Assembly (NCBI GenBank): GCA_945882415.1
Contig: CAMCWC010000001.1
Span: forward strand, 1-64,000
Direction: 5' to 3'
DNA from: Chthonomonas calidirosea
GTDB taxonomy: Bacteria > Armatimonadota > Fimbriimonadia > Fimbriimonadales > Fimbriimonadaceae
DNA: 64,000 nucleotides
The translations under genes and the position numbers were made by a program. Position 1 is the stretch's first letter. Each line of letters opens with the position of its first letter. Below the pieces are notes generated by a model, which worked only from the letters and a program-made list of their open reading frames with translations, was not told where the DNA came from and did no database searches. Shown here piece after piece: positions 2,048 to 18,447 of the stretch.

Positions 2048-2521
2048 ATGAAAACTAACGAACCCCGTGACTTGGCCATCGCGGGTACCACAACAATTTT
2101 GTTCTGTTGCGGTTGGAGCTTCTCCTTGTACTACAACCACAAGTCTGTTTACGATATTAGAGTGTTTAACGACACGTCGATTGCAGTAGAAGTCGACGAA
2201 CTAGGTGGACCATGTGACGGCAAAGTTCTCCCCGGAAAGTACCTTGAGGCAGACTGCGGAATCTATAATCCAAACAGTGCAACGCTCGAACTCAGAATTG
2301 CGAGCTGGGGCGAAGATTACGAACTGGATCTGTATCACGTAGTTCGCGCCTACCAAAAGCTGCCGGACAAAACAAAGCCCGTTATCGTCAACGTGTCGGA
2401 GATCGTCTTGCGAGGACGTAGGTCAGAAGTATCCAAGAATCCAGAAAAAGCAGACTTACAAAGGAAGCTGAGACGTATGGAAGAGGTTGCCCCAAGTAGG
2501 TTCTCAAAACAGAGAAACTAA
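2048..2521 (+). CDS. small membrane-anchored protein of unknown function
   Basis: 157 residues. One hydrophobic stretch (about residues 10-28, ATTTILFCCGWSFSLYY with preceding residues) would anchor it to the membrane. The remainder is a probable beta-rich domain followed by a charged C-terminal helix. Unlike many genes here it has a Shine-Dalgarno-like GAAAGGG five bases before ATG 2048, so it is probably translated from a leadered message. Its promoter is not obvious in the 86 bases after the preceding gene. I do not recognise the family and its role cannot be inferred from its neighbours. Confidence 0.55.
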   Translation: MKTNEPRDLAIAGTTTILFCCGWSFSLYYNHKSVYDIRVFNDTSIAVEVDELGGPCDGKVLPGKYLEADCGIYNPNSATLELRIASWGEDYELDLYHVVRAYQKLPDKTKPVIVNVSEIVLRGRRSEVSKNPEKADLQRKLRRMEEVAPSRFSKQRN

Positions 2522-2743
2522 TGGACATGTCGCTGATAACGAGACGCGTCGTAGGCATTAACTTTGTGGGCAAGTTTCACGAGAACCATTAGCAGTTCGT
2601 ATACCGTGTCAGTCCGTGCGCATTTCTTGCGGTTACAGATTGATTGGGCATCCAGTGTGCGGATTTGTGGGTGTTCACAGATAATATTTGTGCGATCCGC
2701 AATCCAAATATTACTGCGGCTAGCGTGCAACCATCGGTTGTGA
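2521..2743 (-). pseudogene. decayed PIN-domain toxin (VapC-like) remnant
   Basis: Directly downstream of the antitoxin gene, where vapC normally sits. One frame encodes a segment ending TDTVYELLMVLVKLAHKV then AYDAS. This resembles the C-terminal PIN pattern TDxYLLxLAVxxGGKLxTFD, with insertions breaking the spacing. The N-terminal part carrying the first catalytic Asp and a normal start are missing; about 220 bases remain where about 400 would be needed. I read it as a truncated, inactivated toxin. It could instead be chance similarity in a short intergenic region. Confidence 0.4.
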
Positions 2744-2971
2744 TTAATCGCCGAGTTCTTCACGCAATTGATTGATAAGTTTCGAAGTGATCACGGCCCC
2801 ACGCTTTGGCAGCGGGCGGAAACCCATGAAGTCTGCCGAGTCCTCTGGCACGGAATCAAGACCTTTCCTGGCAAGTTCGGAAATCATCTGACCAGTAGTT
2901 TTGTTACTCTTCTTTGCCAGCTCTTTCGCGGCTAGAAGCACATCATCCGCGATTTTGAGAGTCTTACGCAT
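2744..2971 (-). CDS. VapB-type antitoxin
   Basis: 75 residues. It opens MRKTLKIADDVLLAAKELA, the ribbon-helix-helix beginning of VapB-type antitoxins that bind DNA and neutralise a PIN ribonuclease. The middle GQMISELARKGL and the tail FRPLPKRG..IT..LINQLREE match the version of this family normally followed at once by vapC. Here only a degraded toxin remnant follows, so the antitoxin appears orphaned. A TATTCT box 7 bases before the ATG suggests it is still transcribed. It lies directly downstream of the photolyase gene, 27 bases away and on the same strand. Confidence 0.75.
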   Translation of the reverse strand: MRKTLKIADDVLLAAKELAKKSNKTTGQMISELARKGLDSVPEDSADFMGFRPLPKRGAVITSKLINQLREELGD

Positions 2972-2978
2972 ACGTCTG

Positions 2979-2984
2979 AGAATA
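2979..2984 (-). promoter_or_regulatory. -10 box TATTCT, antitoxin gene
   Basis: TATTCT on the minus strand, 7-base spacer, ATG at 2971. Confidence 0.5.
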
Positions 2985-2998
2985 TATCGTCGAGCATC

Positions 2999-4444
2999 TC
3001 AGTCGGGACTATTCGTGATCTTGTCGGGACCGTTGGCTGGGCGCTTCGCCGCAGATGCCAGCAAAGCAATCGCCTTCTCCTTTTGCGTTGCGTGATCGAC
3101 GATTGGGCGAGGGTAGTTCTCGCCTAGAGAGACTCCCGCCGCAGACAGATCAAACGAAGAGGCTGTCGCTGGGGCGTGGATGTACTTGGCGGGCAAGTCT
3201 TTTAGTTCGGGGATCCATTCGCGAATGAACGCCCCATCGCCGTCAAACCGTTCGCTCTGCAGCGCCGGATTGAAGATTCGGAAGTACGGCTGCGCGTCGG
3301 CGCCGGTGCTGGCGGCCCATTGCCAGCCGCCGTTGTTGGAGGCGAGTTCAAAATCGAGCAGCTTCAACGCGAAGTACGACTCGCCAAGTTTCCAATCGAT
3401 CAGCAAGTCTTTGGTGAGGAACGAGGCGACGATCATGCGGAGGCGGTTGTGCATCCAGCCCGTGGCGTTGAGGCAGCGCATGGCGGCGTCGACGATCGGG
3501 TAGCCGGTTTGACCTTGACACCACGCCTCGAAGTGCTCCGGCTTTCCGGGCCAGACGAGCCCATCGAACTGCGGCTGGAACGTGCCTTTCACGACGTGCG
3601 GGTTGTTCCAAAGGAGGTCCTGATAGAACTCGCGCCAGATGAGTTCGTTTAGCCACTTCTCGCCTTCGTCGCCGACTTCGTATGCCCGGCGCACCATTTC
3701 GCGCACGCTGACGGTGCCGAATCGCAGGTGGACGCTCATGCCGCTGGTGCCGGGTTTGCTGGGGAAGTTTCGGGCTTCTTCGTACTCGCGAATCTTAGGC
3801 TGAAACTCGTTCAGCCGGCTTAGCGCGCCGCTTTGCCCAGGTTCCAGCCAAAGCTCGGTTTCCGAGAAGCCAAGATTCGTCAGGCTCCAGGTCGGCACCC
3901 GGCGGGGATCAAGTTTCAGTAGCTTGCTGAGGTCTGGCGTGAGCATCGGGGCTTCACGGCGGACGTCGGTCAGCTTTTTCCAAGCGCGGCTGAATGGGGT
4001 GAAGACCCGGAACGGGGTACCGCTTTGCGAAAGCACGACTCCTGGCTCGTGGATCACGGTGTCTTGGACGGTGTGGAACCGGTCGCCGAGAGCCTTCTTC
4101 ACCGCCACGTCCCGTGAGCGTGCGTATGGTTCGTAGTCGCGGGCAGTAACCACGAGGTCAGCCGCAAACTCTTCGACCAGTTCGGGGATCAGCACCATCG
4201 GATCGCCGTGCCTAACCCACAGCGCGGCGTCGTGCTCGCGCAAAACCTCGTCAACTTGCTGGAGAGATTTGTGAATGAAGGTGACGCGGCGGTCGTCACG
4301 CGGAAGTGAAGCCAGGATGTTCGAATCAAAGATGAACACGACCTGAACCTCTTCGGCGTGTTCGCAAGCGTAGTGCAACGCGGCGTGGTCCGAGGTGCGG
4401 AGGTCGCGACGAATCCAACACAAAGCACGCTTCACCCGGGACAT
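2999..4444 (-). CDS. phrB: deoxyribodipyrimidine photolyase
   Basis: Blue-light flavoenzyme that splits cyclobutane pyrimidine dimers. It has 481 residues, the usual class I length. It opens with the antenna-domain signature CWIRRDLRTSDHAAL. The FAD-binding helical domain contains LNELIWREFYQDLL, TGYPIVDAAMRCL..TGWMHNR and the diagnostic NNGGWQWAASTGAD.QPYFRIFNP stretch. It is the third gene of a minus-strand run after the DsbA-family and DHFR-like genes, 17 bases after the latter, with an AAGGGA motif touching its ATG. A cryptochrome is possible from sequence alone, but the conserved repair-type pattern favours photolyase. Confidence 0.95.
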   Translation of the reverse strand: MSRVKRALCWIRRDLRTSDHAALHYACEHAEEVQVVFIFDSNILASLPRDDRRVTFIHKSLQQVDEVLREHDAALWVRHGDPMVLIPELVEEFAADLVVTARDYEPYARSRDVAVKKALGDRFHTVQDTVIHEPGVVLSQSGTPFRVFTPFSRAWKKLTDVRREAPMLTPDLSKLLKLDPRRVPTWSLTNLGFSETELWLEPGQSGALSRLNEFQPKIREYEEARNFPSKPGTSGMSVHLRFGTVSVREMVRRAYEVGDEGEKWLNELIWREFYQDLLWNNPHVVKGTFQPQFDGLVWPGKPEHFEAWCQGQTGYPIVDAAMRCLNATGWMHNRLRMIVASFLTKDLLIDWKLGESYFALKLLDFELASNNGGWQWAASTGADAQPYFRIFNPALQSERFDGDGAFIREWIPELKDLPAKYIHAPATASSFDLSAAGVSLGENYPRPIVDHATQKEKAIALLASAAKRPANGPDKITNSPD

Positions 4445-4461
4445 TCCCTTGGAATACGTGC

Positions 4462-5073
4462 TTAGCTCGAGGGTCGTCGCCGATAGCGGAGGAAAAGCTC
4501 GTCCTCAACTTGGTGGGTCTCGATCAAGCTGAACTTCTGGATTTCCGCGCGGGCGAGTGGTTCGCCATCGGCAATGGTTGGAACGTCTCGTCCGAGTTTG
4601 ATCTTCGGCGCGAGGGTCAAGAAGATTTCGTCGACTAGGCCGGCGCGGAAGAACTGGGCATTGATCTCACTTCCGCCGAGGACGAGCAAGTTCCGAACTC
4701 CGTTATCAAAAAGGTGAACAGCAAGCGCGTCGAAATCGACAGAATCTTCTCCAAATGACAACTTTTGAATAGGCGGTGGATAATCCACGGTCGCAGTCTT
4801 CGGCAAGACCACGATTGGCGTTCCGTTGCTCAAGTAGCCTGAATCTAACGGCACCTTGCCGGACTTCGACACGACGATGCGAGTGTCGGAATTCGGATTC
4901 CAACTCCGCTGCGCCGCCCGCAAGGTTTCTGCTCCAAGCAACACCGCATCGGCGGCCGCCTCAATGCGCTTCATCAGCACCTTGTCGGTCTTCGATCCCA
5001 GGTCGTGTACGCTCTCGTTCCGCTCACCGGTGATGATCTTGCCGTCGATAGTGCTCACCATGTTGATGAACAC
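4462..5073 (-). CDS. RibD C-terminal/dihydrofolate reductase-like reductase
   Basis: Predicted NADPH-dependent reductase of the RibD_C fold. The body has FINMVSTIDGKI near the start, a central LGAETLRA, and the cofactor-loop motif LLVLGGSEINAQFF, followed by EIFLTLAPKI. There is no separate deaminase domain, so it is a stand-alone reductase; the substrate is unknown (pteridine- or pyrimidine-type is typical). The GTG at 5073 is the first ordinary start codon, but the open frame continues upstream and would encode IYESLSFPPSTEDRPYV, which looks like genuine protein. The true start may therefore be non-standard and lie near 5129, overlapping the end of the DsbA gene. It is followed closely by photolyase. 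Confidence 0.8.
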   Translation of the reverse strand: MFINMVSTIDGKIITGERNESVHDLGSKTDKVLMKRIEAAADAVLLGAETLRAAQRSWNPNSDTRIVVSKSGKVPLDSGYLSNGTPIVVLPKTATVDYPPPIQKLSFGEDSVDFDALAVHLFDNGVRNLLVLGGSEINAQFFRAGLVDEIFLTLAPKIKLGRDVPTIADGEPLARAEIQKFSLIETHQVEDELFLRYRRRPSS

Positions 5074-6153: not shown

Positions 6154-6159
6154 TAAGCT
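6154..6159 (+). promoter_or_regulatory. -10 box TAAGCT, NHL lipoprotein 1
   Basis: TAAGCT, 6-base spacer, ATG 6166. The same hexamer precedes the second paralog. Confidence 0.6.
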
Positions 6160-6165
6160 AGTACG

Positions 6166-8832
6166 ATGCGTTATAAGTTTCGCGCTGTAGGCCTGGCTGG
6201 GCTCGTGGCATTGTTTGGCTGTGGAGGTTCGGGTGGCGGCGGCAGTGCCAGTCCCGTTGATCCGATTGCTCCGACCGAGAAGGGGACAGCGAAGTTCAAC
6301 GTTGATGTTGCAACGGGCAAAGTTGCGATTACGCCGCTGGAGACCGGCTCTACGAAGTCGGCCGTTCTCACTGGCTCTGCCGTGACGTTCGAAACCACAA
6401 CTCTCCTCGCCGAAGGCGGGGAAGTTGGTCGACGGGCCGTTCGGGTTCGGCTGAAAAACAACTTGCAAGAGGCCATTGGTGTTGGGCGGCCGATTCGCAT
6501 TCAGTTTGGCGTTTTTGGACCCCAAAACACCTATCCGACAGACTTGCGGTCCTTGGCAACGGTGAGTACCCCGCTCCGAGACACAACCGCGGGTGGGTTT
6601 TTGGATGGTCCGGCTGGATCGGCGCTTCTTTCCAATCCGAGCGCAGTCGCGGTTGGAAAAGATGGATCCATTTACTTCAATGGAACCGACAATCGCATCC
6701 GAAAATTTGCTGACGGATACGTTTCGACGGTTGCCCAGAATGTCCCCGCGACGGGATTGGTTTATCTTACAGACGCCGTTTCTGGACGTGAGTATCTTGT
6801 CGCCTCTTGCGCTAGCTTGCACAGTATCAAGCTCATCCCGGTTGCGAGCGGCAGTGTAACCACCTGGGCGGGGGCAGATAACGCAGCCGGAAATATCAAC
6901 GGTGCGGCTACGACCGCTCGGTTCGCGTCTCCGGCCGGCGTCGGTATCGATGCGAGCCAGAGTCAGGTGTTGGTCGCGGACAGTTCCAACGGGGCAATTC
7001 GAGCGATTCCGTTCAGTTTTGTGGGTGGGAACCTCGTTGCAGGCACGGTAAGTAGCCGATACTCCGGTCTCACGAATCCGACAAACGTTCACGTTTCCGA
7101 AAATCGCAGTGTCGCCGTAACCGAGACGAGCTCAAACAGAGTCCGGATTTACAATGCTGGCTCAAGTCGCGAAGCCATTTTTGGTGGCACGTTTGGAAAT
7201 GTTAACGGCGATGGTAACGTAGCCCGGTTTGGAGGTCCACGTGGCATCACATCATTGGGGAACACCTTCTACTTGGCTGATGGTGATAACAACCAGATCC
7301 GGCGAATCGAGCTCAAAGATGGTGCTGCGCCGCTGTTGGCAGCAAACTGGACGGTCAGCGTTCTTGCCGGCACCGGTGGGGCTGGCTTTAACGACGGCTC
7401 TGGAACGACAGCGAATTTTGCCAACATCGTGGGGGTCACCACGGATGGTCAAGGTCGCTTGCTGGTCGCGGATAATGGAGCAAACGGAATTCGCCGCATT
7501 GTTTCGGAAGGTGCTTTCGACTTCGGAAGCCCAACCGGCGCAGCGTCTGGCCAAGCCAGCCTTGCAAACCCAACGGGCTTTGCAGACCTCAACGGGCAAC
7601 AGCGACCGTACATCGACATCGCGCAGCGCGTGGAGCCTGGTCAGTCGATTGAAGCGGGAGAATGGCAGTTCTCGATTCCATCGGGCTTGAGTTCTTTCCG
7701 GTTCGCTGTCACGGTCGAAGCGGGTACGAGCGTTTATGCTGGACTTGAAGCGGTGCTCAATCCGAGTGGAGGGGCCGGATCGCCGAACGTAGTGGGGCAA
7801 TTCTTGTCGCGCAATGTGGTAAACGGGAGCCTTGTTGGTCGAATCGACAACGTCTCCTTTGATTCGACAACAACGTACATGAGCTCCGATGCGGCAGGAA
7901 ACCTGTTCGTTTCTGACGGAAATTTGCAAACGATCCGACGCATTGACACCGCCGGAAATGTTACATTGGTTGCGGGCAAGGCTGGGAACGGTGGCGGTGT
8001 AGATGGTGCGGGTTCCGATGCACGGTTCGGATATCCGAACGCGTTGCAGGTGAATCCGGAAGGCACGGAGATTCTCCTCGCCGACGAAGCGAATAGCACG
8101 ATCCGCCGGATCGCGCTTTACTATGATGGTGCTGATCCAAGGATCGCAAACAATTGGAACGTATCCACGATTGCTGGTGCGAATGGCTTACCGGGAGACA
8201 CCAATGGGCAAGGCGACGTTGCCCGATTGCGAGGACCGGTCGCTCTGACGGGGCCGTCGACGGACGAAGTCTTTTTGACGGAGTACACCGGACACCGCAT
8301 TCGACAACTTCGCTACATTGGAGGGAACCGAGCCTTAGCCTCGTCCTGGTTCGTCGCGACGATCGCAGGAACCGGCGCGCCTGGGTACCAGGACGGCGGT
8401 CCCTTTGTCGCGACATTTGGAAATCTGGTCGGCGCTGTCTATTCAGCGGAGGCATCTAAGCTCTTCATCTGCGACCGTAGCAACAATCGAATACGAGCGA
8501 TGGATTTGCTCACCAGAAATGTGACCACGGTTGCGGGTGACGGAAACTATGGATTCCAAGACAATGCCAACGCAACATTGGCCCGCTTTACGTATCTCAA
8601 TGCGATTACTACCGATGCGACGGGTGCCCTTTATATCGGCGATCACACGCGGGTTCGCCGACTCTTCGACGGTGCAATCAAGACGGTCGCTGGCGGTGGG
8701 GACGGCTCGGCAACGACCGGGGACAAGATCCTGCTTGGGTTTGTTTATGGAACGGGAATGAACAAGCAGGGAGACCTGCTCGTCAATTCGGGCGGACGGC
8801 TTGTGCGTCTAACTCGAAAGCTCGGCCGGTAG
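6166..8832 (+). CDS. NHL-repeat lipoprotein, paralog 1 of 4
   Basis: 888 residues. Signal peptide with lipobox ALFGC (Cys19), followed by a Gly/Ser linker (GGSGGGG). Residues about 38-120 form a conserved domain with EGGEVGRR and RIQFGVFGP. From about 145 to 450 come NHL-type repeats, recognisable by VAVGKDGSIYF and six blade-closing strands such as NRIRKF, HSIKLI, GAIRAI, NRVRIY, NQIRRI, NGIRRI. Residues about 450-560 form a probable beta-sandwich ([17 protein letters not shown]). A second set of six strands (QTIRRI, STIRRI, HRIRQL, NRIRAM, TRVRRL, GRLVRL) ends the protein. I infer two six-bladed propellers held on the membrane surface, suited to binding protein or sugar ligands. A terminator and a separate promoter follow, so it is probably transcribed alone. 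Confidence 0.8.
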   Translation: MRYKFRAVGLAGLVALFGCGGSGGGGSASPVDPIAPTEKGTAKFNVDVATGKVAITPLETGSTKSAVLTGSAVTFETTTLLAEGGEVGRRAVRVRLKNNLQEAIGVGRPIRIQFGVFGPQNTYPTDLRSLATVSTPLRDTTAGGFLDGPAGSALLSNPSAVAVGKDGSIYFNGTDNRIRKFADGYVSTVAQNVPATGLVYLTDAVSGREYLVASCASLHSIKLIPVASGSVTTWAGADNAAGNINGAATTARFASPAGVGIDASQSQVLVADSSNGAIRAIPFSFVGGNLVAGTVSSRYSGLTNPTNVHVSENRSVAVTETSSNRVRIYNAGSSREAIFGGTFGNVNGDGNVARFGGPRGITSLGNTFYLADGDNNQIRRIELKDGAAPLLAANWTVSVLAGTGGAGFNDGSGTTANFANIVGVTTDGQGRLLVADNGANGIRRIVSEGAFDFGSPTGAASGQASLANPTGFADLNGQQRPYIDIAQRVEPGQSIEAGEWQFSIPSGLSSFRFAVTVEAGTSVYAGLEAVLNPSGGAGSPNVVGQFLSRNVVNGSLVGRIDNVSFDSTTTYMSSDAAGNLFVSDGNLQTIRRIDTAGNVTLVAGKAGNGGGVDGAGSDARFGYPNALQVNPEGTEILLADEANSTIRRIALYYDGADPRIANNWNVSTIAGANGLPGDTNGQGDVARLRGPVALTGPSTDEVFLTEYTGHRIRQLRYIGGNRALASSWFVATIAGTGAPGYQDGGPFVATFGNLVGAVYSAEASKLFICDRSNNRIRAMDLLTRNVTTVAGDGNYGFQDNANATLARFTYLNAITTDATGALYIGDHTRVRRLFDGAIKTVAGGGDGSATTGDKILLGFVYGTGMNKQGDLLVNSGGRLVRLTRKLGR

Positions 8833-8840
8833 TCCTACAG

Positions 8841-8881
8841 AAGCATGGTCCGCACTTTGCGGGCCATGCTTTCTTGTTTTT
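8841..8881 (+). terminator. intrinsic terminator after NHL paralog 1
   Basis: AGCATGGTCCGCA and TGCGGGCCATGCT pair across a 3-base loop (one G-U pair), followed by TTCTTGTTTTT. It separates paralogs 1 and 2. Confidence 0.85.
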
Positions 8882-8896
8882 GCGTCGCTCATGCGC

Positions 8897-8902
8897 TAAG
8901 CT
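8897..8902 (+). promoter_or_regulatory. -10 box TAAGCT, NHL lipoprotein 2
   Basis: TAAGCT, 7-base spacer, GTG 8910. It supports the GTG start over the in-frame ATG at 8874, which lies inside the preceding terminator. Confidence 0.6.
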
Positions 8903-8909
8903 GAAAACT

Positions 8910-11576
8910 GTGCGACGGTTGTATTTTCCTTTCTTTGCGCTCGTTTTTGCGATAGCTGGTTGTGGTGGTTCAGGTGGTGGCGGGACTACTGCAATTGATC
9001 CGGTTGCGCCGACCGAGAAGGGAACGGCAAAGTTCTCGGTTGATGTTGCCACCGGCAAGGTTGCAATCACTCCACTGGAAACGGGCTCAACGAAGTCGGC
9101 GGTGCTGGGCGGATCGGCCGTAACTTTTGAGACCACGACGCTATTCTCAGAAGGAGGAGAGGTTGGCCGAAGAGCGGTTAAGGTGAAGTTGAAGAACAAC
9201 CTGCCGGAGGCGATTGGAGTCGGAAGACCGATCAGAATTCAGTTCGGCGTGTTTGGACCAGCGACCAGTTTCCCCACCGATATCCGGTCAAACACCAGTG
9301 TCAGTTCGCCGGTCTCCGACCCTACGGCGGGTGGCTACCAGGATGGTCCAGCGGGTTCCGCATTACTCACAAATCCGAGCGCGGTAACGGTTGGAAGGGA
9401 CGGTTCAATCTACTTCAATGGGACTGACAATCGGATTCGAAAGCTTTCGGACGGATACGTTTCGACGGTTGCGCAGAACGTGCCCGCGTCCAGCCTGATC
9501 TACCTAACCGACGCACTCACTGGGCGTGAGTACTTGGTGGCGGCGTGCCCGACTCTTCACAGCGTCAAGCTCATTCCCGTTGCCAGCGGCAGCGTGACCA
9601 CCTGGGCGGGCGCAGATAATGCGGCGGGCAACGTTAATGGCGCTGCAACCACGGCTCGATTCAATACTCCTTCTGGCGTTGGAATCGATTCGAGCCTCAG
9701 CCAGGTGCTGGTAGCCGATACCACTAATGGTGCAATCCGGTCCATCCCGTTCAGCTTTGTCGGGGGCAACTTGGTAGCGGGCACCGTGAGCTCGCGCTAC
9801 TCTGGCCTCACCGGCCCTACGAGCGTGAATGTATCCGAAAATCGAAGCGTCGCGGTCGCAGAAACCGGAATCAATCGAATCCGAATCTATAACGCTGGCT
9901 CGAGTCGTGAGGCGATTTTCGGGGGCACCGCTGGAAACGTAAACGGCGATGGCAATCTTTCTCGTTTCAATGCACCACGAGGCATCACGTCCCTTGGAAA
10001 CACGTTTTACATTGCGGACTCGGGGAATTTTCAGGTCCGGCGCATCGTGGTCAAAGACGGGGCGGCTCCGCTTCTCGCCGCCAACTGGGCAGTTAGCGTT
10101 GTGGCGGGAACGGGCGTTGCTGGTTCTGGCGATGGATCTGGCGTAGCCGCGAATTTTGCGAATCCACAAAATCTCGCAACCGACAGCCAGGGCCGCCTGG
10201 TTGTTGCGGATAGCGGTAACAACGCGATTCGGCGGATTGTCTCGGAAGGGTCGTTCGACTTCGGGACGCCGACGGGATCGTCCGTTGGGCAAGCCAATCT
10301 GACAAACCCGACCGGTTTTGTTGACCTAAACGGCCTGCAACGCCCCTTCATTGACATAGATACCCGGGTTGAGCCGGGACAAACGATTGAGGCTGGTCAG
10401 TGGGTGTTCTCCATTCCAGATGGGCTCACCTCGTTCAATTTCAGTGTTACGGTCGAAGCGGCACCCGCAAACTATGCGGGTCTGGAGGCCGTTCTGAACC
10501 CGTCTTTCGGGGCAGGATCGCCCAACGTCATTGCTCAATACTTGTCAAATGTTGGGACCGCTGGGTCTCCCGTGGGCCGACTTGAAAATGTAGCGTTTAA
10601 CAATGGATTGCATCAGTCTTCGGTAGATGTGAATGGAAATCGCTTCACGGCGGACGGCTCTCTCCAGACTGTGCGGAGAATTTCCCGCGATGGAAATGTC
10701 ACCATCGTCGCGGGCAAAGCCGGTTTTTCGGGGGGCGCCTCCGGCTCTGGGGCAGTGGCAAGACTCTATTACCCCGCAGGCATTCGAACGAACCCCGAAG
10801 GCACCGAGCTGATTGTTACCGAACCGGACAGCAATACGGTGAGACGGATCGGCCTCATTTCTCCCGGTGCGGATCCCACTCTCGCCGAGAACTGGCAAGT
10901 GACAACAATTGCCGGCCTGGCTTTCGCCGGCGGAAACACCAACGGAACTGGAGACGTTGCCCGATTCAACGGTCCAGGCAGCGTGGCAGGACCGTCAAAC
11001 GACGATCTTTACATAACGGAGTTTTACACTTCTCGTGTGCGGTCACTCCGGTATGTGGGTGGCCCAAGGGACGTGGCGACGTCATGGGTGGTGTCTCCAG
11101 CGGCGGGTTCTCTTTCGGGAGGGACTGGCTATGCCGATGGGGTCGGCGAGGCAGCCCTGTTCAACGCTCCGATTTGCATAACGTACGCGCCGAGTGGCAT
11201 TTTGTATATTACGGATCGTTCGAATCATCGAATTCGTGCTTTCAATCCGGCAACCGGGGCGGTAACTACCGTTGCCGGGAACGGTGCTGCTACGCGGGCT
11301 GACAACACCGTTGCACTCGATGCCAGTCTTGAGTTCATCAATGGTATTGCGGCGGATGCCTCTGGAGCGGTCTATTTTTCAGATGGCGGAGTCATCCGAA
11401 GATTGTATGACGGCGCCGTCAAAACGGTCGCCGGTGGGGGAGATAGCTCCGGTACGACCGGAGACAAGGTGCAATTCGGCGGGTCCTTTATCGGCCTTTC
11501 TTTAGATTCAAAGGGCGATCTCTTTTTCGTCACGGACAGCCGCCTTGTGCGACTAACAAGGAAACTGGGGCGGTAA
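8910..11576 (+). CDS. NHL-repeat lipoprotein, paralog 2 of 4
   Basis: 888 residues from the GTG start. Signal RRLYFPFFALVFAIAGC with lipobox IAGC (Cys18), then GGSGGGG. The N-terminal domain from TEKGTAKFSVD to IQFGVFGP is almost identical to that of paralog 3, including long stretches at DNA level, whereas the propellers differ more. The order of parts matches paralog 1, with blade strands NRIRKL, HSVKLI, GAIRSI, NRIRIY, FQVRRI, NAIRRI, then QTVRRI, NTVRRI, SRVRSL, HRIRAF, GVIRRL and a closing RLVRLT. Starting at 8874 would add 12 residues with no lipoprotein character and begin within the terminator hairpin region. Confidence 0.8.
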   Translation: MRRLYFPFFALVFAIAGCGGSGGGGTTAIDPVAPTEKGTAKFSVDVATGKVAITPLETGSTKSAVLGGSAVTFETTTLFSEGGEVGRRAVKVKLKNNLPEAIGVGRPIRIQFGVFGPATSFPTDIRSNTSVSSPVSDPTAGGYQDGPAGSALLTNPSAVTVGRDGSIYFNGTDNRIRKLSDGYVSTVAQNVPASSLIYLTDALTGREYLVAACPTLHSVKLIPVASGSVTTWAGADNAAGNVNGAATTARFNTPSGVGIDSSLSQVLVADTTNGAIRSIPFSFVGGNLVAGTVSSRYSGLTGPTSVNVSENRSVAVAETGINRIRIYNAGSSREAIFGGTAGNVNGDGNLSRFNAPRGITSLGNTFYIADSGNFQVRRIVVKDGAAPLLAANWAVSVVAGTGVAGSGDGSGVAANFANPQNLATDSQGRLVVADSGNNAIRRIVSEGSFDFGTPTGSSVGQANLTNPTGFVDLNGLQRPFIDIDTRVEPGQTIEAGQWVFSIPDGLTSFNFSVTVEAAPANYAGLEAVLNPSFGAGSPNVIAQYLSNVGTAGSPVGRLENVAFNNGLHQSSVDVNGNRFTADGSLQTVRRISRDGNVTIVAGKAGFSGGASGSGAVARLYYPAGIRTNPEGTELIVTEPDSNTVRRIGLISPGADPTLAENWQVTTIAGLAFAGGNTNGTGDVARFNGPGSVAGPSNDDLYITEFYTSRVRSLRYVGGPRDVATSWVVSPAAGSLSGGTGYADGVGEAALFNAPICITYAPSGILYITDRSNHRIRAFNPATGAVTTVAGNGAATRADNTVALDASLEFINGIAADASGAVYFSDGGVIRRLYDGAVKTVAGGGDSSGTTGDKVQFGGSFIGLSLDSKGDLFFVTDSRLVRLTRKLGR

Positions 11577-11585
11577 CCAACGTAC

Positions 11586-11628
11586 TGCCGCTTGCTGGGC
11601 TCTCGCCAGGCGAGCGGCAATTTCTTTC
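11586..11628 (+). terminator. intrinsic terminator after NHL paralog 2
   Basis: TGCCGCTTGC pairs with GCGAGCGGCA (with G-U pairs) around a loop and is followed by ATTTCTTT. Confidence 0.7.
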
Positions 11629-11700
11629 GGTTCTACGATTCGCAAGTGCTCATCCCACTTTCCCTTCGTTAACAGCTATACAACTAAGTAAACAAACCGC

Positions 11701-11706
11701 TATGCT
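11701..11706 (+). promoter_or_regulatory. -10 box TATGCT, NHL lipoprotein 3
   Basis: TATGCT, 6-base spacer, ATG 11713. Confidence 0.55.
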
Positions 11707-11712
11707 TGCGGT

Positions 11713-14385
11713 ATGCGGAAGATGTATCGTGCGGCCAGTTTGGTTGGGCTCCTGGCTTTGTTTGGCTGCGGAGGCTCGGGCGGAGGCGGCGGAAGCGCCA
11801 GCTCGATCGATCCGGTCGCTTCGGACGAGAAGGGTACGGCGAAGTTCTCGGTCGACGTTGCTACCGGCAAGGTTGCAATCACTCCACTCGAAACGGGTTC
11901 GACAAAGTCGGCCGTGCTGGGCGGGTCGGCCGTAACCTTCGAAACCACGACGCTATTCTCCGAGGGCGGCGAGGTTGGCCGAAGAGCGGTTAAGGTGAAG
12001 TTGAAGAACAACTTGCCGGAGGCGATCGGCGTCGGAAGACCGATCAGAATTCAGTTTGGAGTTTTTGGGCCTTCGACCAGCTATCCGACAGATTTGCGAT
12101 CGCTTGCAACGGTGACAACTCCGCTTCGTGACCTAGGCGCGGGCGGCTATTTAGACGGCCCGGTTGGTAGCGCACAACTCACCTCGCCCAGCACGGTAGC
12201 CATTGGAAAAGATGGTTCGATTTACTTTAACGGGACCGACAATCGGATTCGAAAACTCTCCGAAGGATATGTCTCAACCGTTGCGCAGAACGTTCCGGCC
12301 TCTGGCTTGGTTTATCTCACCGATGCGCTCTCGGGCCGGGAATATCTCATCGCGTCCTGCCCATCCTTACATAGCATCAAGCTGGTTCCGATTGCGAGCG
12401 GAAGTGTTACGACTTGGGCTGGCTCAGACGGCGTAGCGGGCAATGTAAATGGCGCGGCAACGACCGCACGGTTTTCATCTCCAAACGGCGTCGGCATCGA
12501 TGCGGGTTTGAACCAGGTCTTGGTTGCCGACACATTAAACGGTGCGATCCGGGCGATTCCGTTTAGCTTTGTCGGTGGCAACTTGGTCGCGGGAACGGTC
12601 GCAACTCGCTATTCCGGTTTATCAAGTCCGTCGAAGGTTCACGTCTCTGAGAATAGGAGCGTTGCCGTTTCTGAAACCGGTGCGAATCGCGTGCGGATCT
12701 ACAATGCCGGATCGAGTCGGGAAGCAATTTTTGGCGGAACGGTCGGAAACGTTAATGGCGATGGCAACCTCGCTCTATTCTCGGGACCACGGGGCATCAC
12801 TTCAATTGGCAACACTTTCTATGTCGCCGATGGCAACAATTATCAAATTCGGCGAATTGAGTTGAAAGATGGTGCAGCACCCTTGCTGGCCGCGAATTGG
12901 ACAGTGAGTGTGCTGGCAGGAAATGGTAGTGCCGCTTTCGCAGATGGCCCAGGTACCACCGCCGGTTTTCGTTATCCCTTTGGCCTGGCGACCGATGCCC
13001 AGAGTCGACTCATCGTCGCAGACTTCGATGCCAACGGCATCCGCCGCATTGCTTCAGAAGGCTCGTACGATTTTGGTACCCCAACTGGTTCTTCGACTGG
13101 ACAAGCCAGTCTGATCGACCCGACGGGCTATGCAGACCGCAACGGATTGTTACGCCCATACATCGACATCGATACTCGGGTTGAACCAGGTCAGACGATT
13201 GATGTTGGCAAGTGGGTTTTTGCCATTCCATCTGGCCTCACGGCGTTTAACTTTGCGGTGACGGTAGAAACCGCTCCAGAAACGTACGCTGGCCTAGAGG
13301 CCGTGTTGAATCCAAGTGGGGGGACCGGATCCCCCAATGTGGTCGCGCAGTTTCTGTCCAATGGCAGAAGCGGTGGCGCCATGTTCGGTCGACTCGAGAA
13401 CGTGTCGTTTAGTAACAGTTGGGGCCAAACCAGCGCGGATGCGCTTGGTAATCGTTTCATCGCGGATGCGGATTTGCATATTGTGAGACGAATTTCCCAA
13501 GCTGGAATGGTGACACTGGTGGCCGGTAAAGTCGGAACTTCGGGAACGACCAATGGTCTTGGAAACACCGCAAGATTCAACTTCCCAACTGGAATAAGGG
13601 TCAATAGCGAAGGCACTGAGCTGATGATTTCTGAAGAAGGCGGTAATGTCATTCGCCGAGTTTCGCTCGTGTCCAATGCCGCAGATCCTGAGATCGCAGA
13701 CAGTTGGAACGTTGCGACGATCGCGGGTATCTCAACGTCGGGAGATGCAAACGGCCCGGGTGGTTCCGCTCGGTTCCGATCGCCCCGAGCGATTGTCGGA
13801 CCTTCGAATGACGATCTCTACGTTTTGGAATCGAATGGCGCTCGATTGCGATCGGTGCAGTATGTAGGGGGGCCAAGAGATCAGGCGTCGTCCTGGTTAG
13901 TCGCTCTGGCTGCGGGCTCTGATAGCGGACTGACAGGATACGTAGATGGCACTGGCGCGACGGCGCGATTCAACTTCCCGACAGGAGCGGCTTATGCTCC
14001 GGACGGAACGATTTACATCTCCGATGGCAGCAATTATCGTATCCGCGCCTTTGATCCGGTAACAAATTCCGTAACAACCGTAGCTGGTTCAGGCGTTGCT
14101 GGGCAAAATGACCATGCTAACGCGCTGTCCGCTCAGTTTCTTTTCCCTTGTTCGGTGGCGGTGGATTCCTTCGGAGCCGTTTTCATTTCGGATCTCAACT
14201 CGATTCGTCGGCTGTACGATGGAGCGGTAAAGACGGTGGCGGGTAACGGCGGCGGAGCCAGCACAACCGGTGATGAAATCTACTTCACAGCGATCATCTT
14301 AGGCCTTGCACTTGATCCGAAGGGCGATCTCATCTTCGTGAATGGGAATCGGCTGGTTCGGCTGACCAGAAAGCTCGGTCGATAG
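11713..14385 (+). CDS. NHL-repeat lipoprotein, paralog 3 of 4
   Basis: 890 residues. Signal MRKMYRAASLVGLLALFGC (lipobox ALFGC, Cys19), then a longer glycine linker than its sisters. The N-terminal conserved domain matches paralog 2 nearly residue for residue. The first propeller contains SSIG- and VAIGKDGSIYF-type strands, the middle sandwich contains VEPGQTIDVGKWVFAIP, and the second propeller ends with [11 protein letters not shown]. The surface-exposed loops between blades differ from paralogs 1 and 2, as expected if the copies recognise different partners. No terminator separates it clearly from paralog 4, only a 47-base gap with a new -10 box. Confidence 0.8.
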   Translation: MRKMYRAASLVGLLALFGCGGSGGGGGSASSIDPVASDEKGTAKFSVDVATGKVAITPLETGSTKSAVLGGSAVTFETTTLFSEGGEVGRRAVKVKLKNNLPEAIGVGRPIRIQFGVFGPSTSYPTDLRSLATVTTPLRDLGAGGYLDGPVGSAQLTSPSTVAIGKDGSIYFNGTDNRIRKLSEGYVSTVAQNVPASGLVYLTDALSGREYLIASCPSLHSIKLVPIASGSVTTWAGSDGVAGNVNGAATTARFSSPNGVGIDAGLNQVLVADTLNGAIRAIPFSFVGGNLVAGTVATRYSGLSSPSKVHVSENRSVAVSETGANRVRIYNAGSSREAIFGGTVGNVNGDGNLALFSGPRGITSIGNTFYVADGNNYQIRRIELKDGAAPLLAANWTVSVLAGNGSAAFADGPGTTAGFRYPFGLATDAQSRLIVADFDANGIRRIASEGSYDFGTPTGSSTGQASLIDPTGYADRNGLLRPYIDIDTRVEPGQTIDVGKWVFAIPSGLTAFNFAVTVETAPETYAGLEAVLNPSGGTGSPNVVAQFLSNGRSGGAMFGRLENVSFSNSWGQTSADALGNRFIADADLHIVRRISQAGMVTLVAGKVGTSGTTNGLGNTARFNFPTGIRVNSEGTELMISEEGGNVIRRVSLVSNAADPEIADSWNVATIAGISTSGDANGPGGSARFRSPRAIVGPSNDDLYVLESNGARLRSVQYVGGPRDQASSWLVALAAGSDSGLTGYVDGTGATARFNFPTGAAYAPDGTIYISDGSNYRIRAFDPVTNSVTTVAGSGVAGQNDHANALSAQFLFPCSVAVDSFGAVFISDLNSIRRLYDGAVKTVAGNGGGASTTGDEIYFTAIILGLALDPKGDLIFVNGNRLVRLTRKLGR

Positions 14386-14420
14386 CATCGCTGAGCTAGA
14401 TAACTGAACGTGATGGCGTA

Positions 14421-14426
14421 TAAACT
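14421..14426 (+). promoter_or_regulatory. -10 box TAAACT, NHL lipoprotein 4
   Basis: TAAACT, 6-base spacer, GTG 14433. It favours 14433 over the in-frame GTG at 14427 that touches the box. Confidence 0.55.
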
Positions 14427-14432
14427 GTGCGC

Positions 14433-17099
14433 GTGCGCCATCTGCTTCCTTTATCTTTTCTTGCCATTGCATTAGTAGGCTGCGGCGGATCGGGGGGCGG
14501 ATCGTCCGTTGTAACCCCGGTCCCCGAAACCCCGACGGAGAAAGGCACCGCCTTGTTCAACGTCAATGTAAATACCGGCAAGGTCACGGTGGTGCCCTTG
14601 GAAGGGGCGGATAGCCGAGCAAAGTCCTCCGTTCTCGGTGGAAACGCCGTCAGCTTCACCACTTCGACCTTGCTGAGCGAAGGCGGAGAAGTTGGCCGTC
14701 GAGTCGTGAAGGTTCAAATGAAGAACAACCTGAGCGAGGCGATTGGCGTCGATCGGCCGATTCGGCTCCAGTTCGGAGTGTTTGGCCCGCTGACTGATTA
14801 CCCGACGGACCTGCGCGACCAAGCCGCCGTAAGCACGCTCGTGCGAGACCTGAATCCCGGCTTCCTCGATGGCCCCGCTGGTTCTGCCCGCTTCTCGAAC
14901 CCAACTGCCGTTACCGTCGGTGCAGACGGCGCGATTTACTTTAATGGCACCGATAATCGAATCCGTCGATTGCTAGATGGCTACATTTCGACGGTGGCTC
15001 AAAACGTCGCCGCGAGCGGGCTGACCTACCTAAAGGATCCGTTGACCAATCGTGAGTACATCGTTGCCGCCAGCTCCGCGACCCATTCCATCAAGCTAAT
15101 CCCCGTTGCAAGCGGATCGGTCACCACCTGGGCGGGGGCGGATAACACTGCCGGAAACATCAACGGTGCCGCTACTTCGGCTCGATTCAACAGCCCATAT
15201 GGGGTAGCAGTGGACGCTCAAAGCTCCCAAGTCCTCGTGGCCGATTCGGGTAACGGCGCGGTTCGAGCCATTCCGTTCACCTTTGTTGGCGGAAACTTGG
15301 TCGCCGGAACAGTACTCACCCGCTACTCCGGACTTACGGCCCCCTACTGCGTTGCCGTGGCTTCCAACCGAACTGTCGGCGTCATCGAGGGCAACCTTAA
15401 CCGAGTACGACTTTACAACGCGGGTTCCAGCCGGGAGGCGATTATTGGAACCGGGACCGCTGGCAACGTCGTTGGCAGTGGCAACATCACCCAGTTCTCG
15501 CTGCCCATTGGCATCACCGCACTCGGGGAAACCTTCTTTGTCACCGACGTGAATAACCGTCAGGTCAAGCGGATTGCCCTCAAGAATGCGGCCGCGCCGC
15601 TCCTTGCCGCTAACTGGACGACGTCGATCCTCGCTGGTACAGGCAATCTTGGCGTAGCCGATGGATCTGGTTCTGCCGCCGAGTTCAGTTCGATTCCTGG
15701 TATCACGACCGATTCTCAAGGCAGACTCGTTCTTGCCGACCAGAATTCGAACTCTATTCGTCGAATCGTTAGCAACGGTGCCTTTGACTTTGGTACGCCA
15801 GACGGATCAGCCGTGGGTGGAACCGCCCTGGTGAATCTGACCGGCAACGCGGACCTCAACGGTCTTCAACGACCTTTCATTGATCTGAACCAGACGATTC
15901 AACCCGGAGAAACGATTGATGCCGGAGAGTGGCAGTTCAGCATTCCAGATGGAGTGTCAGCCTTCCGCTTCGCGGTGACCGTAGAAGCTGCAACGCCTTT
16001 CTATGGTGGCTTAGAGGCCGTTCTAAACCCGACTGGCGGCCCCGGCTCGCCAAACGTTGTGGCGCAGAAGTTGAATCGTCCCACCTTTCCTGCAGTCTAT
16101 ACCGGTCGTCTGGAGAACGTCTCCTTTGTCCCTGCGGGTGGGAATATGGCCCATGATGCGGCTGGCAATATGTATGTGGCCGAGTTCGATTTGCCGATTA
16201 TTCGGCGAATCAGCTCGACCGGTAACGTCACTCTCGTTGCCGGGCGCGAAAACTCATATGGCAGTGCAAATGGAACTGGGTCGCAAGCGCGTTTTCTCGG
16301 CGTTGGAGGAATCGTCGTGAACCGCGAGGGGACCGAGCTTTTAGTAGCCGACGGCACGTCAAGTACCATCCGTCGGGTTGCGCTGAACGTAGGATCAGAT
16401 CCGGCAAATGCGGATAACTGGTCGGTATCTACCATCGCAGGTACAGTTTCGACGCCTGGAGACACCGATGGAAGTGGCACGGAGGCGAAGTTTAGGTTTC
16501 CTTGGGGGTTGGCTGGCTTCAGTAATGACGCGATATACATCTCCGAATCAAATGGAAACCGGATTCGGTTGTTAAAGTATGTCGGAGGAGATCGTGCCCA
16601 AGCCTCATCATGGGCCGTCACATTCGTCTGCGGCTCGCCAATCGGAGATTTGGGTTTTGCGGATGGCTTGGGTTCGAACGCGCGATTCAATAATCCGTAC
16701 GGTGTTTCGCTTACGAAGAATGGCACCCTCTATATTGCGGATTACGAAAACAATAGAATCCGTGCTTTAAACACGGCTAACGGGACAGTGTCCACCGTCG
16801 CAGGAACCGGAGGTTTTGGTAGCAGCGATAGCACTTCGGCAACAACTGGCACTTTGTCCGCTCCGTTTGGCATCGTCGCAGATGATTCGGGAGCGGTGTA
16901 TTTCAGTAGCGGCAGTAGGGTACGTCGTCTTCTTAATGGCACGCTGAAAACGGTTGCAGGCGGCGGGAACGGCACAGGAACTACCGGGGACACCGTGCAG
17001 TTTCAATTCATATATGGTCTTGGCATCAACCGCCAGGGAGATGTAACGCTAATCACGAATGGTCAACTGGTTCGGCTGACCAGAAAGCTCGGTCGCTAG
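14433..17099 (+). CDS. NHL-repeat lipoprotein, paralog 4 of 4 (most divergent)
   Basis: 888 residues from GTG 14433. Signal [16 protein letters not shown] with lipobox ALVGC, then GGSGGGS. It keeps the same parts, but the N-terminal domain differs more ([20 protein letters not shown] and [14 protein letters not shown]). The first propeller has LLDGYIS in place of the sisters' DGYVS with other changes, and the sandwich has [17 protein letters not shown]. The last residues are [10 protein letters not shown] as in all copies, and the final 29 or so bases are nearly identical to those of paralog 3. It is probably the oldest or least homogenised copy. It is followed by a short GCAA-loop hairpin and then icd. 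Confidence 0.8.
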
Positions 17100-17114
17100 C
17101 ACGGCCCGATTACT

Positions 17115-17130
17115 GCCCGGGCAACCGGGC
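17115..17130 (+). terminator. GC-rich hairpin with GCAA loop between NHL 4 and icd
   Basis: GCCCGG-GCAA-CCGGGC, a perfect 6-bp stem, followed by GGTATTCTAT with no U-run. It may terminate weakly or protect an mRNA end. TATTCT at 17133 could serve as the icd -10 box, 10 bases before the ATG. Confidence 0.4.
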
Positions 17131-17148
17131 GGTATTCTATCGGATAGC

Positions 17149-18447
17149 ATGGCAACTCCGATTCGCATGACCAGCGCCGGTCTCGACGTTCCAAACGACC
17201 CGATTATTCCATTCATCGAGGGCGATGGTACTGGCCCAGACATCTGGCGATCCAGCGTTCGCGTCTTCGATGCCGCGGTTGAAAAAGCCTACGGCGGAAC
17301 CCGAAAAGTAGCCTGGCAGGAAGTGCTTGCGGGCGAAAAGGCGTTCAACGCCACCGGAAACTGGTTGCCCGACGAAACCCTCGACGCCTTCCGAACTTAT
17401 CTGATCGGCATCAAGGGCCCGCTCACCACCCCGGTTGGCGGCGGCATTCGTTCGCTCAACGTCGCTTTGCGACAGATCCTCGACCTCTATGTTTGCCTTC
17501 GCCCCGTGCAGTGGTTCACCGGCGTTCCTAGCCCGGTCAAGAATCCAGGCGCGGTGGACATGGTCATCTTCCGGGAAAACACGGAAGACATCTATGCGGG
17601 AATTGAATATGCCGCCGGATCGGAAGACGCGGCGAAGATCCTCAACTTCCTGCAAGAGAACTTCCCGAAAGAGTTCGCAAAGATTCGATTCGGCACGACG
17701 GAAGCGGGCGAGAAGTGGAACGAACAACTTAAAGGCGTCGGACTTCCCGAGCGCGATGCGACCCTCGAAGTCGGTATCGGCTTTAAGCCGGTCAGCTACC
17801 TCGGCACCGAGCGAATCGTCCACAGCGCGATTGAGTACGCGATCCGAACCGGTCGAAAGAGCGTCACCCTCGTCCACAAGGGCAACATCATGAAGTTCAC
17901 CGAAGGTAGTTTCCGAGACTGGGGCTACAAGGTCGCGAAGGACTTCTTCGGAGCCGAAGAGATCGACGGTGGCCCATGGTGCCGAATTCCAGAAGGGAAG
18001 CCAGGCGCGGGATTGATCATCAAGGATGCCATCGCCGACATCACCCTTCAGCAGGTTCTCACCCGACCAGAAGACTTCGATGTCATCGCAACGCTCAACC
18101 TCAACGGTGACTACCTCAGCGACGCGCTCGCGGCGCAGGTTGGCGGCATCGGGATTGCTCCGGGCGCAAACATCAATTACGTGACGGGACACGCGATCTT
18201 CGAAGCCACCCACGGTACCGCGCCAAAGTACGCGAACCTCGATAAGGTCAATCCTTCGTCGGTGATCCTTAGTGGCGAAATGATGTTCCGCTACCTCGGT
18301 TGGACCGAAGTTGCCGACCTCATTCTGAAGGGCGTCGAAGGCGCCATCTCTTCCGGCAAGGTCACTTACGACTTCGCTCGATTGATGGAGAACGCAACCG
18401 AAGTGAAGTGCAGTGGTTTCGGCGACGAAATCATCGCAAACATGTAA
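17149..18447 (+). CDS. icd: isocitrate dehydrogenase (NADP+ type)
   Basis: TCA-cycle enzyme converting isocitrate to 2-oxoglutarate and CO2. 432 residues, the length of the bacterial homodimeric enzyme. Seen here: [12 protein letters not shown] (residues 22-33), the substrate loop RSLNVALRQ (Ser102, Asn104, Arg108), [15 protein letters not shown], and the C-terminal metal and substrate region [25 protein letters not shown]. Ser102 corresponds to the serine that is phosphorylated in enteric bacteria; no kinase gene is nearby. An acetyltransferase gene follows after 8 bases and may be co-transcribed. The NADP preference is inferred from the family. Confidence 0.95.

Follow-up and report, generated by a model that had tools for sequence, protein, structure and literature searches.

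Four tandem genes encoding predicted nested double-propeller NHL lipoproteins, candidate surface binding proteins of the Armatimonadota

Four large, similar genes follow one another in the window, the 64,000-nucleotide stretch of DNA that was analysed, and the first-pass annotation had described their products as lipoproteins with two NHL propellers joined by a beta-sandwich, perhaps a set of surface receptors or adhesins. The four open reading frames are consecutive and head to tail on the plus strand, with 888, 888, 890 and 888 codons.

6166 to 8832, plus strand: gene 1, nested double-propeller lipoprotein of 888 residues (open reading frame and AlphaFold2 model; 82% identical to the syntenic copy in the related genome G015)
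8910 to 11576, plus strand: gene 2, same nested double-propeller family, 888 residues, GTG start (open reading frame and homology; without a G015 orthologue)
11713 to 14385, plus strand: gene 3, same nested double-propeller family, 890 residues (open reading frame; 84% identical to the G015 copy)
14433 to 17099, plus strand: gene 4, same nested double-propeller family, 888 residues, GTG start (open reading frame; 90% identical to the G015 copy)

The reading frames, together with a pairwise identity of 56-69% among the four proteins, confirmed that the genes share one plan. The longest reading frame of gene 2 opens at TTG 8874, but the start was set at GTG 8910 because of homology, an upstream terminator and a -10 box; gene 4 has a second in-frame GTG at 14427. 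The lipoprotein signal, glycine linker and common end described by the annotation were present in all four sequences. Each has a signal peptide followed by a lipobox (LFGC, IAGC, LFGC and LVGC in genes 1-4, pattern [LI][FAV]GC after a hydrophobic stretch), the cysteine of which is invariant in a 26-row alignment, then the linker CGGSGGG, and a C-terminal stretch of 10 residues is common to all. A further, distant copy, the fifth in this genome, is found on contig 26 and is 35% identical. The neighbouring genes in the window (photolyase, RibD-like, DsbA-like, icd) have housekeeping roles and offered no hint of function. Another large propeller protein, of 968 residues with sortilin/Vps10-type BNR repeats, is encoded in the same window at 45213-48119.

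The AlphaFold2 model of gene 1, made from the 26-row alignment, had a mean pLDDT of 83 and contained two closed propellers, each of six four-stranded blades, with propeller strands at residues about 131-447 and about 542-884; the pTM of the whole chain was only 0.50, a value that leaves the mutual placement of the domains unfixed. A second model, restricted to residues 36-535 and based on a 42-row alignment, reached a pLDDT of 86 and a pTM of 0.72. The predicted parts of gene 1 are as follows.

6277 to 6549, plus strand: first half of the beta-sandwich, residues 38-128 (N-terminal profile; joined to the second half in relatives with one propeller)
6556 to 7506, plus strand: six-bladed NHL propeller 1, residues 131-447, inserted in the sandwich (AlphaFold2 strands; structural alignment)
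7528 to 7770, plus strand: second half of the beta-sandwich, residues 455-535 (profiles and single-propeller relatives)
7786 to 8820, plus strand: six-bladed NHL propeller 2, residues 541-885, a fast-evolving module (AlphaFold2, structural alignment and substitution rates)

Both modelled propellers matched solved six-bladed NHL propellers in VIA-align at Z 30-39: propeller 1 was closest to 3hrp, TRIM71, PknD and the designed Pizza6 (Z 30-33), and propeller 2 to SOQ1 and NHLRC2 (Z 39). The claim of two six-bladed NHL propellers is thus borne out by the gene 1 model, in which both appear. The Pfam family NHL (PF01436) scored 60-94 bits in all four proteins (cut-off 20; E-values 1e-16 to 3e-27), and the only significant Pfam families were NHL, TEN_NHL and a weak SGL. 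No cut-off was reached in an NCBIfam scan, PHROGs gave no match, and none of the best-ranked PDB chains covered the whole gene 1 chain well. The absence of a known family over the full length, as the annotation had it, held for Pfam, NCBIfam, PHROGs and PDB chains; matches on plasmids were partial and limited to the NHL part.

The weak matches to SGL, Arylesterase and Vgb_lyase raise the possibility that one propeller is catalytic and the proteins are secreted six-bladed lactonases or lyases (SMP-30, arylesterase, Vgb-like). However, SGL reached just 26.8 and 29.5 bits, with the cut-off at 26.3, in two of the four proteins and was below it or absent in the others, while Arylesterase and Vgb_lyase stayed under their cut-offs. 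The invariant columns of propeller 2 are moreover nearly all glycine, apart from occasional R, A and D residues that belong to the blade motif, and include no cluster of invariant His or Glu, so an enzymatic function is judged highly improbable. Almost as improbable is a role in sensing ligands and signalling by way of a partner, as the PknD propeller does for its kinase: the extracellular PknD propeller is close in fold (Z about 30), but the chain has no transmembrane or kinase part and no signalling gene was found among the immediate neighbours tested.

The order of the remaining domains differs from the linear plan of an N-terminal domain, propeller, sandwich and second propeller. In the gene 1 model five strands precede propeller 1 (residues 42-114) and four follow it (471-518). 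Each set is small for a separate sandwich and relatives exist in which the two are contiguous, so that the halves are likely to form one sandwich. A sandwich profile, consisting of the two pieces joined with propeller 1 left out, was searched in 151 Armatimonadota genomes. In double-propeller proteins the pieces matched about 330-370 residues apart. On contig 158 of genome G215, three tandem reading frames (625, 571 and 562 residues; locus L108, 3263-8862), which lie beside a double-propeller copy on the same contig, matched the whole profile uninterrupted with E-values of 6e-37, 2e-31 and 3e-30. The gap between the halves was 5-10 residues in these three, the alignment was continuous across the junction, and the sandwich was followed by a single propeller that matched propeller 2; a fourth G215 reading frame (638 residues, contig 192) had a gap of 24 residues. 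On sequence and model, one beta-sandwich with propeller 1 inserted in a loop therefore most likely has the 'N-terminal domain' and the 'middle sandwich' as its halves. The two propellers of the earlier description stand, but a sandwich does not simply join them; its N-terminal and sandwich domains behave as one domain that propeller 1 splits.

The sandwich halves, separate or joined, had no trustworthy match in Pfam, and when the sandwich was submitted to Foldseek and VIA the match lists were filled by propellers. One relative of 796 residues (L102, contig 208 of G204, 2172-4559) has its sandwich halves only about 158 residues apart, and its propeller 1 for that reason looks shortened or broken. 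The single-propeller form might be the ancestral one. All G215 copies group together in the tree, and since double-propeller proteins are widespread, loss of propeller 1 in G215 is simpler than gain in the others, although the root is uncertain. Either way, relatives with a whole sandwich make it possible to study how a complete domain was gained or lost.

The family is present in many Armatimonadota lineages and, judging from the sequences, has been tandem-expanded several times. At E 1e-30 or better 40 of 291 Armatimonadota genomes matched, of which some may be matches to NHL only; the sandwich profile found matches in 22 of its 151 genomes, and in the Fimbriimonadaceae 19 of 85 genomes had matches, not all of them full-length. 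Copies per genome range from 0 to more than 10; the related genome G007, for example, has three homologues. The survey of array size that the annotation had proposed gave four copies at the locus between the DsbA-like gene and icd in the genome studied here, three in G015, where both flanks are syntenic, and one in G025, directly before icd. Genes 1, 3 and 4 each pair with a G015 orthologue in the tree and gene 2 does not. Genome G050, from another genus, has at least 11 full-length copies, with five complete copies and two contig-end pieces on one 16-kb contig, and G215 has a further tandem set; the expansions at icd, in G050 and in G215 are separate on the tree.

The copies do not evolve evenly along their length. 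The paralogues are saturated at synonymous sites, and gene 4 and its G015 counterpart are the only orthologue pair with usable dS, which was 0.27-0.42 throughout. The dN/dS ratio of this pair was 0.06 in the N-terminal part, 0.06 in propeller 1, 0.05 in the middle part and 0.39 in propeller 2 (counts outside versus inside propeller 2: odds ratio 6, Fisher p 7e-12), and substitution counts followed the same trend in the other two orthologue pairs (p 0.008 and 8e-9), though these are near saturation. In two of the three pairs the changes in propeller 2 fell preferentially in the DA and BC loops (p 5e-5 and 1e-4). Because this bias was absent in the third pair and was also seen in propeller 1 of one pair, it may in part be a general property of long NHL loops. 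The suggestion that differing loops confer separate specificities consequently finds partial support, in the fast propeller 2 and the loop bias of two of the three pairs. The dN/dS of propeller 2 is below 1, a value that relaxed constraint could explain as well as diversifying selection.

This last value would also suit a different function, in which the proteins are scaffold or assembly lipoproteins of the envelope whose propellers bind proteins of the same cell, the copies serving dosage or paralogue-specific partners and propeller 2 being under weaker constraint. NHL propellers inside cells bind proteins and RNA, and the wide range in copy number, with matches in so small a share of Fimbriimonadaceae genomes, would be in keeping with such a role. 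Repeated independent tandem expansion together with one fast module is, however, more typical of proteins that meet variable outside ligands, and we regard the scaffold as a rather unlikely explanation, though a better one than the enzyme or the sensor.

Two further features of the locus may reflect exchange between sequences. Over 14433-18447, gene 4 and icd have a dS to G015 of 0.27-0.51, compared with about 1.0-1.25 for most flanking genes, and may thus form a recombined block. Genes 2 and 3 are 87-90% identical in DNA over their 5' parts (amino acids 31-120; 9000-9270 and 11803-12073), compared with 51-77% elsewhere, and this stretch is likely a gene-conversion tract.

The annotation had further proposed that the genes are individually controlled. 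Generic scans for sigma-70 promoters and terminators gave totals equal to those of shuffled sequences and were dropped, and the evidence used was limited to individual hairpin folds and to a box close to the start.

6154 to 6159, plus strand: -10-like box TAAGCT, 6 nt before the gene 1 start (start-proximal box scan)
8840 to 8872, plus strand: predicted intrinsic terminator after gene 1, 15-bp stem and T-rich tail (-26 kcal/mol, z -7.4)
8897 to 8902, plus strand: -10-like box TAAGCT, 7 nt before the gene 2 start (start-proximal box scan)
11586 to 11619, plus strand: hairpin after gene 2, followed by TTTCTTT (z -4.4)
11701 to 11706, plus strand: -10-like box TATGCT, 6 nt before the gene 3 start (start-proximal box scan)
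14421 to 14426, plus strand: -10-like box TAAACT (in TATAAACT), 6 nt before the gene 4 start (start-proximal box scan)
17111 to 17134, plus strand: hairpin after gene 4, before icd, with a weak T tail (z -3.9)

All four genes, the three G015 counterparts and the distant fifth copy have a TANNNT box that ends 5-9 nt upstream of the start, against a background of 3.7% at random ATG or GTG codons, in agreement with a promoter-like box for each gene. Putative terminators between at least two of the genes were likewise recovered, as the hairpins after genes 1 and 2; folding of the gap between genes 3 and 4 revealed no hairpin. The position of the box fits leaderless transcripts from putative promoters. 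TANNNT also occurs directly upstream of several unrelated starts, for example 19242, 21117, 34283 and 57277, hinting that leaderless transcripts may be common in this genome.

The explanation we lean toward, with somewhat better than even confidence, is that the four genes are locally expanded, outer-surface binding lipoproteins, conserved in the half that anchors them and variable in the half that meets the ligand. The chain would be tethered by its lipidated cysteine and the flexible glycine linker, the beta-sandwich would fold with the whole of propeller 1 in its middle loop, and the second six-bladed propeller would end the chain. The rigid unit of sandwich and propeller 1, which is strongly constrained, probably docks onto the cell envelope or a shared partner, while propeller 2, diverse between copies and orthologues, is probably the half that contacts the ligand. 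Each copy is probably expressed from its own, apparently leaderless, promoter. This reading builds on the lipobox, the two propellers, the split sandwich, the change in copy number, the rate contrast and the boxes, as given by sequence or model; surface export, a binding function, the type of ligand, separate specificities and promoter activity are what we infer within it. Propeller 2 may instead be under relaxed constraint, and the proteins could act as periplasmic scaffolds or, less probably, as enzymes. A bolder version, held only tentatively, is that the Armatimonadota have a diversifying surface-recognition system of their own, made of an anchored sandwich, a nested conserved propeller and a terminal hypervariable specificity propeller, encoded by tandem, individually promoted genes that recombination may reshuffle. 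To our knowledge, almost nothing is known of the surface biology of this phylum. The family displays a propeller nested in a sandwich loop, and its members are concrete candidates for surface binding proteins in which one half is clearly conserved and the other variable. By analogy, the extracellular NHL propellers of teneurins have comparable roles (PMC5851990, PMC13018210), and the PknD propeller plausibly does too.

Several known systems share parts of this architecture. The NHL propellers of the SOQ1 lumenal domain (7djm), NHLRC2 (6g7w), TRIM71 (9jur), PknD (1rwl) and Pizza6 have the same six-bladed fold, their alignments extending over 244-311 residues, whereas the array proteins are lipoproteins with two propellers per chain, one of them in a beta-sandwich, and no Trx, TRIM or kinase part was found in them. 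The NHL surface proteins that Bacteroides encodes in polysaccharide loci (3hrp, 3tc9 and 4hw6; their titles read 'auxiliary nutrient binding protein' or unknown) are also bacterial and exported and have the same propeller fold (Z 30-33), but they have one propeller and come from a different phylum; the array had no glycan-uptake neighbours, and no IPT/TIG domain was matched by the whole proteins or the excised sandwich. The bacterial teneurin-like proteins (9ifo; PMC13018210) carry an NHL propeller beside a sandwich-type FN-plug, and the array proteins match TEN_NHL, but they are about 900 residues long rather than more than 2000 and have neither a YD/RHS shell nor a C-terminal toxin domain: Pfam gave no RHS/YD match, and sandwich and propellers account for the whole chain. 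ScyF (NCBIfam NF035926) is, like the array proteins, exported and has NHL repeats, but at 28-34 bits against a cut-off of 350 they are not ScyF. In a search confined to the papers in PMC, none paired 'NHL repeat' with Fimbriimonas or joined Armatimonadetes, NHL and lipoprotein. The known part of the family is its blades, which are ordinary NHL; the new part, absent from the model libraries, PDB and open papers searched, is the nested double-propeller lipoprotein and its arrays.
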